A DNA stretch of 64,000 nucleotides. Origin: Actinocatenispora rupis (GTDB taxonomy: Bacteria > Actinomycetota > Actinomycetes > Mycobacteriales > Micromonosporaceae). The DNA lies in assembly GCF_016861975.1 (NCBI RefSeq), contig NZ_BOMB01000017.1, positions 186,001 through 250,000 of the forward strand, given 5' to 3'. The position numbers were made by a program, and so were the translations under genes. This document shows positions 9,125 through 34,017 of this stretch, one piece after another; position 1 is the stretch's first letter, and every line of letters begins with the position of its first letter. The notes under the pieces were generated by a model that had not been told where the DNA came from, did no database searches, and saw nothing but the letters and a program-made list of their open reading frames with translations.

Positions 9125-9964
9125 ATGGAGACGCGGGAGCTGCGCTACTTCGTCGCCGTCGCCGAGGAACTGCACTTCGGGCGGGCCGCGCAGCGGTTGG
9201 GGATCGCCCAGCCGCCGCTGTCGCGCGCGATCCGCCAGCTCGAACGGCGCCTCGGCGTCACCCTCTTCGAACGCAGCAGCCGCGCCGTCACCCTCACCGA
9301 CGCCGGCGAGGTACTGCTGCGCGAGGGGCGCGCCGCGCTGGACGCCGTCGCCGCCGCCGACCGCCGTACCCGACGCGCCGCGACCGGCCGCCCCGGGCTG
9401 GTGCTCGTCACGAAGGCCGGCGCCTCCAGCGAACTGCTCGCCAAGCTGCTCGACGCGTACGCCACGGAGCCGGACGCGGTCGCCGTCGACGTCCAGCTGT
9501 GCGGCCCCGCGGAACAGGAACGGCTGCTGCGCGACGGCCGGGCCGACGTGGCGCTGCTGCACCGGCCGTACGACTCGGCGGTCGGGTTCGACACCGAGGA
9601 CCTGCGCACCGAGGGGCAGGTCGTACTGCTGCCGGCCGGGCACCCGCTGACCACCCGCCCGCACGTACGCCTGGCGGAGGTCACCGCGCTGCCCGACCTG
9701 CCGCTGCCGCGCTGGCCCGACCCCGACGGCGGGTACCCGGACGGCCCCGGCCCGCCCGTACGCGACAACGCCCAATTGCTGCAACTGATCGCGCTCGGCC
9801 GCACCGTCGCGGTACTCCCCGAGTCGGTGCGCGTGCACCTGCACGAGGGCCTCGCCGCCGTACCGGTGCTCGACGCGCCCGAGGTGACGACCATGATCGC
9901 GTGGCCGCCGCACAGCCGGTCCCGCGCGCTCGCCGCCCTCGTCCGTACCGCCACGCGTCTCTGA
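9125..9964 (+). CDS. LysR family transcriptional regulator
   Basis: A 279-residue LTTR. The N-terminal helix-turn-helix begins METRELRYFVAVAEELHFGRAAQRL and continues through QPPLSRAIRQLERRLGVTLF, as expected for the family. The remainder is the periplasmic-binding-like effector domain (about residues 90-279). The effector cannot be predicted. Divergence from the SDR gene and the shared palindrome at 9086-9102 suggest autoregulation and control of that gene. Confidence 0.9.
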   Translation: METRELRYFVAVAEELHFGRAAQRLGIAQPPLSRAIRQLERRLGVTLFERSSRAVTLTDAGEVLLREGRAALDAVAAADRRTRRAATGRPGLVLVTKAGASSELLAKLLDAYATEPDAVAVDVQLCGPAEQERLLRDGRADVALLHRPYDSAVGFDTEDLRTEGQVVLLPAGHPLTTRPHVRLAEVTALPDLPLPRWPDPDGGYPDGPGPPVRDNAQLLQLIALGRTVAVLPESVRVHLHEGLAAVPVLDAPEVTTMIAWPPHSRSRALAALVRTATRL

Positions 9965-10101
9965 GCGGCGGCCGTCTCGCGCGGCGAGCGGTCGCGAGGC
10001 GTACCGGCCGGATTCCGGGACGGTGTTGCGGTGGCGGCACGTGCTCCGAAGGATGACCGGGGGCACGTCCGTGTCCCGTTCCTTCACCGAAGGGGAACCG
10101 C

Positions 10102-25451: not shown

Positions 25452-25905
25452 CGTCGCTCCTCGCGGCCCCGCCGCGCCCCGGTGGGCGTCGGTCGCTGCG
25501 AGGAGGCTCCACCCTGCCCCTGGGGCAACCTCAAGCGTGATCCGGCCGACAGCGATCGGCCGGAGTCTCCCCCCGTCGCGACGGTCGGTGCCCGCTCGAA
25601 CCGTCGGCGTCCGCCACGCACGCCGCGAGCGGCGCGGCACCCTCGCTCCGGTACGCCCGCGGACGGCACCGTTGCCGCACACCCGAGAATCCGGGTAGCC
25701 GCAACGGGTTCAGTACCGTCCACAGTGGACTGTCGGGCGACGGCGCTCGGCCGGAACGCGCGCCGTACGCCACGTGGACCGGACGCGTACCGGCTGGCCG
25801 GGCAACGCCGGCACCCCGCCGGACGTGCGGTCGGAGGTCGGCCTGATCGCCCGTCCGCATCCGCCGGGCTAGGGTTGGCGGGCCGGATGAGAAAGGCGGT
25901 GAGTC
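25452..25905. other. Gene-free stretch
   Basis: No supported gene in about 450 bp. It holds the divergent promoter region for the serine hydrolase and the PHP phosphatase; I found no clear operator. Confidence 0.5.
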
Positions 25906-31627: not shown

Positions 31628-32090
31628 GCCCGCGATCGTACCGGCCGCCGGCGTCGTACCCGAGGGGGCCGAGGTGCGCGCGGGGAAAGAAACCGGCGGC
31701 GTCCTCGCGCTCCGACCCCCAGAGGTGGCCGATCAGGTGGCCGTCCCGCAGCGCCCGACGTACTCGGTCCGCTCCAGTGTCCACGGGCCGAGCGGGCCGA
31801 CGTTGCCGGGCCGCCCCGTCGGTTCCCAGTCGTACCCGGGCATCGCTTCCCCCACAACGCATCGCGGACCGTCCCACCATCGTACGGCGGATAATCCGTT
31901 GCCACCGAACGGAACCAGGTCCACCATCGATGCGGTACGACACCGACGGCGAAGGACGGCACCGTGCACTCGTGGCAGAAAACGCAGCATGTGGACCGCG
32001 TCAGCGGCGCCACGGCGCGCGCCTGCCCGGACGGGCGGAGCGGGAAGCCCGGCGGCGGTGGTACTTCGACGTAGCGCACGACGCGTACCC
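31628..32090. other. Decayed stretch before the tRNA array
   Basis: No intact gene. On the minus strand, MPGYDWEPTGRPGN and ERTEYVG (from ATG 31843) followed in another frame by ALRDGHLIGHLWGSERED look like two parts of one broken small protein of unknown family. The rest holds nothing I recognise. Confidence 0.35.
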
Positions 32091-32135
32091 GTCGAAGGGC
32101 CGCCTCCACCGGACTCCGGGAGGCGGCCCTTCGAC
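32091..32135. terminator. Very strong hairpin upstream of tRNA array
   Basis: Perfect 16-bp arms GTCGAAGGGCCGCCTC and GAGGCGGCCCTTCGAC with a 13-nt loop, followed by GTTTCCC. It likely insulates the array from upstream transcription or ends a plus-strand transcript. Confidence 0.75.
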
Positions 32136-32158
32136 GTTTCCCGGCAACCACAACACAT

Positions 32159-32227
32159 GCGGGCGAGCTGCGGCAGCGGCCCGGACTCGAAACCCGAGAC
32201 CAGGGGGTTCGACTCCTCCCGCCCGTG
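32159..32227 (+). pseudogene. tRNA-like element A (degenerate)
   Basis: GCGGGCG pairs with CGCCCGT as an acceptor stem (one G-T pair). The T arm is GGGGG-TTCGACT-CCTCC. The D arm is a tight hairpin GCTG-CGG-CAGC. The anticodon arm does not fold cleanly: one register gives loop CTCGAAA (anticodon CGA) with two stem mismatches and no long variable arm, inconsistent with a serine tRNA. It looks like a decayed or non-canonical tRNA. Confidence 0.45.
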
Positions 32228-32316
32228 CGAGCACCCGACGGTGCCCGATCCATGAGAACTCCACAGTGGACGCGAAACCCAGGCGACCGGCCGCGTGCCG
32301 GCGCCTGACGACACAC

Positions 32317-32390
32317 GCCTCCGTAGCTCAGATGGTCAGAGCTGCCGTCTCTTAAACGGAAGGCCGCTGGTTCGAATCCAGCCGGGGGCA
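32317..32390 (+). tRNA. tRNA-Lys(CTT)-like
   Basis: Acceptor GCCTCCG/CGGGGGC (one U-G pair), D arm TAGCTC...GAGC with GG in the loop, anticodon loop CTCTTAA with anticodon CTT at 32351-32353, U33 and A37, and T arm GCTGG-TTCGAAT-CCAGC. One mismatch (27-43) in the anticodon stem. Discriminator A; CCA is not encoded. It could be functional. Confidence 0.8.
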
Positions 32391-32459
32391 CGGCCGGTGT
32401 CCGGGGACACTGCCCCGGTTCCGCCCGCATGGGGGTGCGGTGCGGCGACCGGCATGGAG

Positions 32460-32533
32460 GGCGCGTCGGTCCAGAAGGACAGGACGCCGGAGGTTCGCTC
32501 CGGCGGCCGCGGGTTCGGCTCCCGCGCGCGCCA
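32460..32533 (+). tRNA. tRNA-Glu(TTC)-like with aberrant anticodon loop
   Basis: Acceptor GGCGCGT/GCGCGCC, D stem GTCC/GGAC with GG in a 9-nt loop, anticodon stem CCGGA/TCCGG, T arm GCGGG-TTCGGCT-CCCGC. The loop GGTTCGC puts TTC at 34-36 (32494-32496), but position 33 is G instead of the near-universal U and 37 is G. All stems pair, so the fold is kept while decoding-loop identity is lost. Confidence 0.6.
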
Positions 32534-32534
32534 C

Positions 32535-32606
32535 GGCCCCGTCGGCTATGGGTTAGGCCGCCAGGTTTTCACCCTGGCAGAGCGGGTTCGAGTCCCGTCG
32601 GGGCTG
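32535..32606 (+). tRNA. tRNA-Glu(TTC)
   Basis: Starts one base after the preceding element. Acceptor GGCCCCG/CGGGGCT (one G-T), D stem GGCT/GGCC, perfect anticodon stem CCAGG/CCTGG with loop TTTTCAC (anticodon TTC at 32568-32570, U33, A37), T arm GCGGG-TTCGAGT-CCCGT. Discriminator G; CCA not encoded. A canonical fold. Confidence 0.85.
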
Positions 32607-32610
32607 CAAC

Positions 32611-32629
32611 ACGGGCCACACCGGCCCGT
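32611..32629 (+). promoter_or_regulatory. Hairpin between tRNA-Glu and tRNA-His
   Basis: ACGGGCC-ACACC-GGCCCGT is an exact 7-bp hairpin in the 27-nt spacer; it might be a processing signal or terminator. Confidence 0.4.
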
Positions 32630-32633
32630 ACAT

Positions 32634-32708
32634 GGTGTCCGTGGTGTACCGGTCGTGCACACCAGACTGTGACTCTGGAGGAGACGGGTTCGACTCCCTC
32701 CGGACACC
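32634..32708 (+). tRNA. tRNA-His(GTG)
   Basis: Perfect acceptor GTGTCCG/CGGACAC with the histidine-specific extra G(-1) opposite C73. D stem GTGT/GCAC, perfect anticodon stem CCAGA/TCTGG with loop CTGTGAC (anticodon GTG at 32669-32671). The T stem pairs only with a bulged C (GA-C-GGG/CCC-TC), an oddity. Its 3' acceptor strand overlaps the next element. Confidence 0.8.
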
Positions 32709-32761
32709 CGATGAGTCGGAAGGGTACGGCAGGCATGCAGGTTCGAGTCCTGCCGTCCGGA
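32700..32761 (+). pseudogene. tRNA-like element F, 62 nt, overlaps tRNA-His
   Basis: CCGGACA pairs with CGTCCGG (6 of 7), T arm GCAGG-TTCGAGT-CCTGC is perfect, and CCGA-TGAG-TCGG makes a D-like hairpin. Only about 17 nt remain between D and T arms, with no 5-bp/7-nt anticodon arm. The 5' strand is shared with the 3' acceptor strand of tRNA-His, so both cannot be cut from one transcript. Confidence 0.45.
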
Positions 32762-32785
32762 CGAGGCCGCGACACGGCGGCCGAT

Positions 32786-32857
32786 GCGGACATGGTGTCA
32801 ACGGCAGCATGCGAGCCTTCCACGCTCAGGGTGCGGGTTCGAGTCCCGCTGTCCGCT
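32786..32857 (+). tRNA. tRNA-Gly(TCC)-like
   Basis: Perfect acceptor GCGGACA/TGTCCGC, D arm GTGT...GCAT with wobble pairs, anticodon loop CTTCCAC (anticodon TCC at 32819-32821, U33, A37) on a stem with one mismatch (27-43), and T arm GCGGG-TTCGAGT-CCCGC. Discriminator T. Confidence 0.75.
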
Positions 32858-32887
32858 CGACGACTCCGGCCACGGCTGCGGTCGGAT

Positions 32888-32945
32888 GCACACGTAGCTC
32901 AGCGGACAGAGTACCGCCGTGCGGGTTCGATCCACGTTGCGTGCG
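32888..32945 (+). pseudogene. tRNA-like element H lacking an anticodon arm
   Basis: GCACACG/TGCGTGC acceptor (one mismatch), canonical TAGCTC...GAGT D arm with GG, and T arm GCGGG-TTCGATC-CACGT. Just seven nucleotides (CCGCCGT) separate D and T arms, so the anticodon arm is precisely missing. The element is 58 nt long. Confidence 0.5.
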
Positions 32946-32961
32946 CTGATGTCCGTGACGC

Positions 32962-32987
32962 GGAAACCTTTGGTACGCAACGGTTCC
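32962..32987. repeat. Dispersed palindrome inside the tRNA array
   Basis: GGAAACCTTTG-GTACG-CAACGGTTCC, between two tRNA-like elements. Confidence 0.55.
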
Positions 32988-33018
32988 GTTCCGCCGGTCC
33001 GGTCCGCGGCGTACGACC

Positions 33019-33094
33019 TGGCTGGATGGCGCAGTGTGGAGTGTTCGTGGGACTCATGGCCGGCGTGCTCTCCGGTTTCGAACCCCTGCCACCA
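33019..33094 (+). pseudogene. tRNA-like element I (CAT loop, strongly degenerate)
   Basis: TGGCTGG can pair with CCTGCCA (one mismatch), followed by CCA in the DNA. A D-like arm GCGC...GTGT is possible and CTCATGG carries CAT after U33, but anticodon and T stems do not pair well (T loop TTCGAAC). Probably a decayed methionine-type tRNA. Confidence 0.35.
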
Positions 33095-33171
33095 GACGTT
33101 CGCGAACCGAGTTGTGGGTCGGACCGTGAGCTGGCAGGCTCGCACGCCGGTCGGCAGACGGGAGACGCATC

Positions 33172-33753
33172 GTGGACGTGGCACTGACGGAATGGCAACC
33201 GCACTGGGCGACGGACTTCGCCGCACTCGCGGAGCGCATCACGAACGCCGCCGGCGCGCGCATCGTACGGGTCGACCACATCGGGTCGACGTCCGTACCG
33301 GGGATGGCCGCGAAGGACGTCATCGACGTGCAGGTGATCGTGCGCAACCTGCCCGACCCGGAACTCGCGGACGGCCTGCTGGCGGCGGGATTCACGCGGT
33401 CGCCGGGCGCGCACGAGCTGCGCGACCACGTACCGGAGAGTTGGCGGGGTGATCCGGGTGCGTGGGACAAGGCCGTGTTCCGTCCGCCGGCGGGTACCCG
33501 GCCGGGCAACGTGCACGTGCGGGTCGCCGGTCGTCCGAACGAGCGGTACGCCCTGCTGTTCCGGGACTTCCTGACCGACGACCGTGGCGCGTGCGCGTCG
33601 TGGGCACTGTTCAAGCGGCGACTCGCGCTCGCGGCCCCGGACCTGCCCACGTACGGCCAGATCAAGGATCCGGCCAGCGACATCCTGATGGCCGCCGCCG
33701 AACGGTGGGCGACGGCGACCGGGTGGCAGCCGCCGGATCCGTTGCCCGCCTGA
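33172..33753 (+). CDS. GrpB family (UPF0157) nucleotidyltransferase-fold protein
   Basis: A 193-residue GrpB protein: VDHIGSTSVPGMAAKDVIDVQVIV carries the nucleotidyltransferase G-S plus D-x-D motif (about residues 30-52), followed by LRDHVPESWRGDPGAWDK, NVHVRVAGRPNERYALLFRDFL, and FKRRLA. The family has a polymerase-beta-type fold of unclear biochemical role. GTG at 33172 follows GACGGGAGACGC. It starts 78 bp after the last tRNA-like element, on the same strand, so joint transcription is possible. Confidence 0.88.
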   Translation: MDVALTEWQPHWATDFAALAERITNAAGARIVRVDHIGSTSVPGMAAKDVIDVQVIVRNLPDPELADGLLAAGFTRSPGAHELRDHVPESWRGDPGAWDKAVFRPPAGTRPGNVHVRVAGRPNERYALLFRDFLTDDRGACASWALFKRRLALAAPDLPTYGQIKDPASDILMAAAERWATATGWQPPDPLPA

Positions 33754-33918: not shown

Positions 33919-34017
33919 AATTGGTCGGACCGCTCGCCTGGCTGGCGGTGCGCCCGTGTCTGGCCACCGGGCCGGCGGTACGCCAACGGCGCGCCGCCGG
34001 CCGTCGCGTCCACTGTG

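Follow-up and report, generated by a model that had tools for sequence, protein, structure and literature searches.

The window analysed here, a stretch of 64,000 nucleotides from Actinocatenispora rupis, is part of contig C17 of a 7.83-Mb genome with 65 transfer RNA (tRNA) matches, and it carries a compact array of tRNA-like elements that is preceded by the putative remnants of a leader and followed by a gene for a GrpB-family protein (Table 1). The initial annotation had described nine such elements on one strand, some well folded and others degenerate, and this description has held: ARAGORN recognises six tRNA genes on the forward strand at 32159-32858, four elements (Lys-CTT, the Glu-TTC at 32535, Gly-TCC and His-GTG) pass the gathering score of the Rfam family RF00005, and all nine, when scored against the array tRNAs of the bacterial family to which the genome belongs, beat all 20 shuffles of their own sequence (for example, 36 against at most 20 for 32885-32950, 31 against 20 for 33017-33096 and 29 against 17 for 32701-32765). 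Expressed as a tally, four elements pass Rfam, two are seen by ARAGORN only, and three are fragments recognised by their T arm. Three of the longer stretches between elements (32229-32316, 32392-32459 and 32951-33017) gave no excess over shuffles when compared with the array tRNAs. With Rfam at E values up to 10, a search that reports the best member of a clan and hides lower-scoring ones, the first element and the first Glu have weak tRNA-Sec matches alone (22.9 and 17.7 bits), and no tRNA-family match was listed for the three fragments. Two points of the earlier description need amendment: its Glu(TTC) consists of two elements, of which the second (32535-32606) is canonical and the first, with G at positions 33 and 58, is not, and the overlap it proposed between two elements depends on the weakest of the nine (32701-32765) and is not firmly shown. 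The ancestries in Table 1 refer to the 15 nearest among 1642 pooled tRNAs, which came from array loci, from IMG/VR loci and from the 47 other tRNAs of the source genome, near-duplicates kept; for the first Glu-like element, these are eight Asp-GTC, four Glu-CTC, two Glu-TTC and one His.

Table 1. The tRNA array, its putative leader and the adjoining gene, in window coordinates.
Feature	Position	Strand	Remarks
Candidate leader small open reading frame	31964..32074	+	GTG start, 36 amino acids; same place as the leader frame of relatives
Terminator-like hairpin	32090..32136	+	Only TTT after it; relatives have a GCCGCC..GGCGG-type hairpin and a run of T residues at this place
Degenerate tRNA-Trp	32159..32226	+	Ser-CGA by ARAGORN; broken D arm, anticodon loop CTCGAAA; Trp is 11 of 15 nearest
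-35-like ATGAGA	32252-32257	+	TTGACA in the family; -10 not recognisable
Leader palindrome AACTCCACAGTGGACGCGAA	32257..32276	+	Four mismatches to the family 20-mer; 30 nt past the Trp element
tRNA-Lys(CTT), fold intact	32317..32390	+	66.3 bits; ancestry ambiguous, Arg-CCG is 6 of 15 nearest
Degenerate Glu-like element	32460..32533	+	Anticodon letters TTC; G33, G58; found by ARAGORN
tRNA-Glu(TTC), intact	32535..32606	+	53.8 bits; array Glu-TTC is 12 of 15 nearest
tRNA-His(GTG), intact	32635..32708	+	44.0 bits; G at -1 (32634), C73; array His-GTG is 9 of 15 nearest
tRNA fragment	32701..32765	+	T arm intact, no anticodon arm recognised; would overlap His; ancestry ambiguous
tRNA-Gly(TCC), intact	32786..32857	+	52.4 bits; array Gly-TCC is 7 of 15 nearest, housekeeping Thr and Gly also close
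Dead tRNA-Arg(CCG)-like element	32888..32947	+	Anticodon arm missing; Arg-CCG is 10 of 15 nearest
Dead tRNA-Met(CAT)-like element	33018..33094	+	Met-CAT is 12 of 15 nearest
GrpB-family protein gene	33172..33753	+	Pfam GrpB, 2e-33; a neighbour, membership of the array not shown

Fuller arrays of 20-36 tRNAs are found in relatives and on phage-like contigs, and these have a small open reading frame (ORF), a terminator-like hairpin, a tRNA-Trp and then, between Trp and the next tRNA, a TTGACA box with the palindrome AACTCCACAGTGGATGGCAT. The first six relatives have 20-28 tRNAs each in one common order, which in the 28-tRNA array of genome G002 reads Trp, Pro, Ala, Phe, Glu-CTC, Gly-TCC, Leu-CAA, Thr, Gly-GCC, HNH gene, Gln, Leu, Thr, Ala, Leu, Asp, Ser, Ile, Arg-ACG, Pro, Lys, Met, Glu-TTC, Asn, Val, His, Tyr, Arg-CCG and Cys. 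The elements of the window keep the family order (Trp, leader, Lys, Glu-TTC, His, Arg-CCG, Met) with the exception of Gly-TCC, which stands late in this array and likewise in array L170. Within the genus, G002 counts 69 tRNA matches and G003 67, with a single leader match in each of the two, and G001 has 48 tRNA matches, no array-type HNH gene and no leader match; G001 was considered as an empty site for the array of the other two and rejected, its left flank reaching a contig end. At two mismatches or fewer, AACTCCACAGTGGATGGCAT occurs in 128 of 300 genomes of the family, representing 25 of 44 genera, against 3 of 300 for the reversed pattern. tRNAs accompany 52 of the 59 leader loci (at least two tRNAs at 26 of 27 in one set, at least four at 26 of 32 in a further set), and shrunken arrays are common among them: six of the 27 hold six or seven tRNAs in a 3-kb piece, and one holds two. 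The HNH gene was tried as a marker of arrays as well. At E 1e-50 or better, it is present in 218 of 300 family genomes, yet often without tRNAs (seven of eight loci picked by HNH alone had no tRNA; among nine typed HNH loci, four had none within 1.5 kb and one had three), and the leader was therefore used as the marker instead. In genus g4, the array-type HNH genes L061, L064, L065 and L066 are solitary, with no tRNA within 1.5 kb.

Remnants of the same leader can be followed in the window. The candidate leader ORF starts (M)HSWQ, as many leaders of relatives start M.WQ; the RW end that is usual in relatives is not in frame within 31964-32074, and the ORF is probably degenerate. The hairpin that the initial annotation had placed ahead of the array is borne out by the fold of segment 32060-32140, with a minimum free energy of -51.8 kcal/mol (z -7.2). 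We define a leader-linked module by a palindrome between Trp and the remaining tRNAs and by a -35 TTGACA with a -10; the window has the palindrome in its place, with ATGAGA instead of the -35 and no -10. The promoter and the run of T residues (T-run) both look decayed, the pairing of the ORF end with the 5' arm of the hairpin is equalled by 16 of 200 shuffles, and the 11-bp core of the palindrome is by itself common in the source genome.

Among relatives, a GC-rich hairpin with a T-run precedes Trp in 33 of 33 leader loci (of two scans, one gave other hairpins in L116 and L040 and the other in L138, the GCCGCC type being found in the alternate scan). The -35 columns of 33 loci count T30 T31 G31 A24 C21 A33, with a weaker -10; L118, which has no tRNA, and L141, an inverted 3' copy, were excluded from the hairpin, ORF-pairing and -35 counts. 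The small ORF upstream of the hairpin often closes in RW plus one or two residues, and in 20 loci chosen by eye a purine-rich stretch precedes its start. Across 13 comparable pairs its substitutions fall 76/52/88 by codon position, with 61 synonymous and 115 other codon changes; for sequences so related to one another, this is a weak sign of coding. Its end can pair with the 5' arm of the hairpin, and in 19 of 34 loci at most 10 of 200 shuffles did as well (median z -2.0). A ribosome-mediated attenuator of the trp type has a short leader ORF whose last codons are able to pair with the 5' arm of the terminator, and the array leader would resemble it in this respect; unlike the trp type, it has no evident run of one regulatory codon, and it would control tRNAs rather than enzymes. 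The leader thus appears to have the shape of an attenuator, short of proof. A search of six array loci with Rfam for a known leader RNA matched tRNA alone. As a separate observation, an inverted copy of the palindrome stands directly after the last tRNA in arrays of the same genus (L006 at 11201, L038 at 7088 and L039 at 9275), several other genomes have pairs in inverted orientation about 1-4 kb apart, and the window has an inverted copy at 34009, past the GrpB gene; the inverted copy may mark the end of the module.

The module belongs to a mobile type that occurs on plasmids and on phage-like contigs. When viral contigs were scanned for the leader, three matched, every one with tRNAs; one of these, IMGVR_UViG_3300044712_000982, has 32 tRNAs and a whole leader, and five of its eight proteins match phage families, including HNH, a DnaB-like helicase, a polynucleotide kinase and a DNA polymerase exonuclease (phage character was checked by proteins for this contig and, with two proteins, for L153). 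With the HNH protein as query, 22 IMG/VR contigs were retrieved, the three leader contigs included, which are not all independent (L201 and L202 look like one array). All 22 have tRNAs, 6-36 per contig and at least 22 in 20 of them, and the leader motif stands right after Trp in 18, at three mismatches or fewer in 12; four are without the motif. The reversed motif, taken as a control, never came below seven mismatches across 5 kb of the 22 loci. On the phage-like contig L152, a polynucleotide kinase-like gene (9543-10019; phrog_505, 1.8e-17) follows the array, and we take it to resemble the tRNA repair enzymes of phages. Confinement of the leader to one family is ruled out by a match running into the motif on a linear plasmid of Nonomuraea sp. 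NBC_00507, a member of another order: here a 23-tRNA stretch has the motif at three mismatches with TTGACA before it, and a hairpin with a T-run and an open short ORF lie ahead of Trp. On two mycobacterial plasmids, from Mycobacterium intracellulare (28 tRNAs) and from Mycolicibacterium sp. TY66 (27), TTTGAGAACT.CACAGTGGTGGCAT stands just before the first tRNA, in both cases one base shorter than the family motif; ungapped, L219 and L220 give 6-7 mismatches against 7-8 for the reversed control, and the match leans on the one missing base and on position. Among nine named records, arrays L216, L219 and L220 have the element, L218 has a four-mismatch copy before a Trp gene, and five with a tRNA-Trp match (L217 and L221-L224: housekeeping Trp, lone Trp genes and a small phage cluster) have no leader-like element. 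A piece of pS2b with two tRNAs, which is not the main array, has the motif at four mismatches 143 nt before a Trp gene.

The source genome has a second array, on contig C48, with 15 tRNAs and an HNH endonuclease gene. This gene is the single match to the array HNH in the genome at E 1e-50, and at that threshold the window array has none. The C48 tRNAs are 74-100% like the nearest array tRNAs, 8 of 15 at 85% or more. Their array lacks 13 of the 28 slots of the G002 array, and all four intact anticodons of the window are among these 13; the Arg-CCG and Met that are dead in the window are intact on C48. The chance that four anticodons would all fall among the lost slots is C(13,4)/C(28,4) = 0.035 by simple arithmetic, and the complement by itself scores 0.07 against arrays of other genomes. 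The 47 other, housekeeping tRNA genes of the genome include Lys-CTT, Glu-TTC, His-GTG and Gly-TCC, so that the window array is redundant with them. Two side observations concern these sets. The C48 array (L006, 8723-11211) looks as if it had moved as a unit, its homology to the G003 array beginning about 215 bp before Trp and ending at the palindrome past the last tRNA, with different outer flanks. Phe-GAA was not found among the 47 housekeeping tRNAs (L067-L108, G000); contig C30 ends at the Glu-Asp pair L087, and Phe-GAA may therefore have been lost in an assembly gap.

Arrays were read in 19 genomes among the leader or HNH matches listed, with others that have two HNH or leader matches, such as G093, G111, G152, G153 and G240, left out, and six genomes with two partial arrays were counted, the source genome being included because of the window. 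An identical pair (G135), pairs with a near-complete array (G013, G128 and G202) and tRNA-less places were set aside; the window was counted by its four Rfam-passing anticodons, and the Ser-CGA of ARAGORN likewise has no overlap with C48. The six pairs share five anticodons, where matched arrays taken from other genomes would lead one to expect 14.3 (P 0.0003) and weighted drawing 13.9 (P 0.0005), with a null pool of 23 arrays of our own choosing. When each genome was left out in turn, P was at most 0.0025, and without both the source genome and G127 it was 0.0094. Survivors are interleaved along the order in the paired arrays, and both partners come with a leader of their own in five of the six pairs (window/C48, G079, G088, G097 and G127), L193 of G130 being recognised by HNH only. 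On this comparison, reciprocal retention appears to be a real pattern whose cause is uncertain. The G135 arrays (L173 and L174) are identical over 4500 of 4500 nt and lie on an 8.7-Mb contig and a 131-kb contig; they may represent a recent duplication, a plasmid copy or an assembly artefact.

Taken together, we read the locus as the eroded remains of a second, chromosomal copy of a tRNA-array module that is linked to a leader and of a mobile type, and would give this reading a probability of about 0.82. The kind of element, a tRNA array unit, is already known, and the details are new. An eroding array was among the explanations offered by the initial annotation, and it is the one that has gained ground, as the window array agrees with the fuller arrays of relatives in order, leader and sequences. 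The full module of relatives and phage-like contigs comprises the short leader ORF, the terminator-like hairpin, tRNA-Trp and a probable promoter with the palindrome between its -35 and -10, followed by 20-36 tRNA genes serving almost all amino acids, with the HNH gene after Gly-GCC. Homology, order, leader and complement are shown by the sequences, and from them on regulation, expression and selection are inferred. The array would probably be off during growth and come on through stalled translation of the leader ORF or release of the palindrome, and once switched on it would supply spare tRNAs unlike those used for housekeeping. Decay or loss has affected the putative promoter, the T-run, the HNH gene and most tRNAs of the window copy; four tRNAs still fold, and the copy may survive as a partial complement of the C48 array, where these anticodons have all been lost.

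Several observations weigh against this account. A strict promoter scan found nothing in the window or in L039, and the promoter is accordingly a putative one. The intact window tRNAs are 68-79% identical to the closest array tRNAs, those of their own genome included, so a recent duplication from C48 is not shown to be their origin, and the Lys may be a re-labelled tRNA, because it is closest to Arg-CCG array tRNAs. All four intact anticodons are already covered by housekeeping tRNAs, and with Trp broken in the window and missing from C48 too, the complement is incomplete. No tRNA was found at 6 of 32 leader loci (L157, L158, L160, L166, L183 and L185, in 9-kb pieces) or at L118; such loci may be chance matches, solo leaders of lost arrays or sites with another use. 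Adding the identical G135 pair raises P to 0.32 and the signal is gone, and G127 has a complete third array beside its two complementary ones. The expectation that a small single array implies a further, complementary array was not borne out in G126 and G209, whose six-tRNA arrays have no second array-sized cluster among 56 and 52 tRNA matches, a group of four matches on C13 of G126 being left untyped.

One reading of the window array is a plain neutral relic, derived from a phage or plasmid, unused by its host and decaying at random, so that the complement with C48 is due to chance; we hold this to be slightly below an even proposition. The decayed promoter and T-run, the housekeeping copies of all four anticodons, the partnerless reduced arrays of G126 and G209, and the different survivors kept in the shrunken arrays of many relatives are all as expected of a relic, and the complement in the source genome alone is weak evidence. 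It is less easily reconciled with four full cloverleaves of 44-66 bits, or with a deficit of overlap that recurs over six genomes (P about 0.0004, and 0.0025 without the source genome). That deficit, about 5 against 14 with interleaved survivors, leads instead to the thought that the two arrays form a subfunctionalised pair, in which different members were lost and the two together constitute one selected working set of spare tRNAs, with the window array as the minor half. The intact window members are those missing from C48, and its dead Arg-CCG and Met are intact there. We hold the idea to be less likely than not: the sample is small, drawn from the matches listed, and the source genome entered it through the window itself; G135 and G127 are exceptions; Trp is lost from both arrays here; and the promoter of the window copy looks dead. 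A bolder proposal, which we consider unlikely as a whole, is that an attenuator-controlled spare set is common to phages, plasmids and chromosomes, that stalled translation of the leader ORF relieves termination and so provides, upon cleavage or starvation of the normal tRNAs, a second tRNA set, and that two-copy chromosomal arrays divide this set, the window array again being the minor half.

A single array cut by rearrangement, with its segments moved apart, would produce complementarity free of charge and without selection, and the inverted 3' palindrome copies in C48, L038 and L039 could have helped. This explanation is disfavoured, and we regard it as improbable: each partial array has a leader of its own in five of six pairs, interleaved survivors would require many cuts, and the window and C48 tRNAs differ in their likeness to the nearest array tRNAs (68-79% against 74-100%). 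The decoy, or RNA with another role, that had also been suggested, for instance a bait for anticodon nucleases, found no support in the analysis and is very improbable, for while the three fragments do keep their T arms better than their anticodon arms, the damage differs from one fragment to the next and relatives hold intact versions of those that could be assigned, no search aimed at conserved broken forms having been made.

Arrays of the kind to which we assign the window have been described before. In Mycobacterium, tRNA array units have at least 20 tRNAs at 2-9 per kb and occur in genomes, plasmids and phages (Morgado and Vicente 2018, PMC5966550), and HNH is their most widespread protein gene. 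The arrays of this family are like those units in being dense one-strand clusters whose order is shared among chromosome, plasmid and phage. The window has that density, the shared isotype order and the redundancy with housekeeping tRNAs, but with six tRNAs by ARAGORN, four by Rfam and nine with fragments in about 0.94 kb (four intact and five broken), it falls short of 20 and is thus a relic rather than a full unit. The main text of that paper does not contain the words promoter, leader, attenuat or terminator, yet the two mycobacterial plasmid arrays discussed above have a leader-like element before the first tRNA. Giant linear plasmids of Mycobacterium avium carry 26-27 tRNAs with a single HNH inside, their anticodons redundant with the chromosome and their sequences unlike the housekeeping tRNAs (Yano et al. 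2026, PMC12803027); that array is plasmid-borne and intact, whereas the window array is chromosomal and eroded, and the same four words are absent from the main text of the report, which describes no leader. Among tested systems, the trn operon of Anabaena comes closest as a model for the running of such an array: its 26 spare tRNAs are silent in growth and are induced by translation-blocking drugs via the repressor TrcR (PMC10272220). Anabaena belongs to another phylum and its repressor site is of another type, whereas the arrays considered here have a leader ORF, a hairpin and a different palindrome. The tRNA clusters of phages have been proposed to replace cleaved host tRNAs and so to evade tRNA nucleases (van den Berg et al. 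2023, PMC10264068). That work deals with large tRNA sets in C1 mycobacteriophages and with no chromosomal relic such as the window array; nuclease-resistant phage tRNAs would be marked by anticodon-loop changes at nuclease sites. An anticodon-nuclease countermeasure, as earlier suggested for this locus, is the published idea for such arrays, but the window copy is too decayed to argue for it alone. Among the papers listed, none dealt, by title and abstract opening, with a tRNA-array leader or with divided arrays, most subscription papers being outside the scope of the search.

On what switches large tRNA arrays on, and whether hosts use them, the leader gives a concrete handle; it spans 25 of the 44 sampled genera of one family, phage-like contigs, and plasmids of other orders. 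Reciprocal retention, should it hold in a full survey, would be evidence at the level of sequence that hosts keep the set as a set.

With respect to the surroundings of the array, the GrpB gene noted beyond it is a real one by its Pfam match, with a start at about 33172. The array and GrpB were considered as a conserved pair and this was rejected: the nearest GrpB proteins of the genus mates are 52% identical in G001 (on a 3.5-kb piece without tRNA) and 38% in G002 and G003, away from any array read, and in the latter two the array is more than 2 Mb from GrpB. Pfam matches were obtained for 6 of the 22 ORFs at 25-41 kb (GrpB, peptidase M15, PspAB, PspA, CN_hydrolase and a weak SH3_3), with no integrase or transposase among them. 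The earlier view that the array lies outside any mobile element is thus partly upheld, on the 22 ORFs scanned; the module itself is of a mobile type. Two of ten proteins have PHROGs matches, the M15 peptidase to phage endolysins (1.7e-22) and GrpB to an unnamed phage family (8.5e-14); the M15 gene is probably a host gene, because it is conserved at 82-84% in all three genus mates. Last, a 13-bp palindrome, GTCCACWGTGGAC, lies at window positions 25719 and 29574 and has 318 copies in the source genome, 81-139 in the three genus mates, 237 in G028 of another family and 0-1 in 26 of 41 genomes, with a reversed control at 0-1 per genome, and is thus a patchy, highly iterated palindrome.

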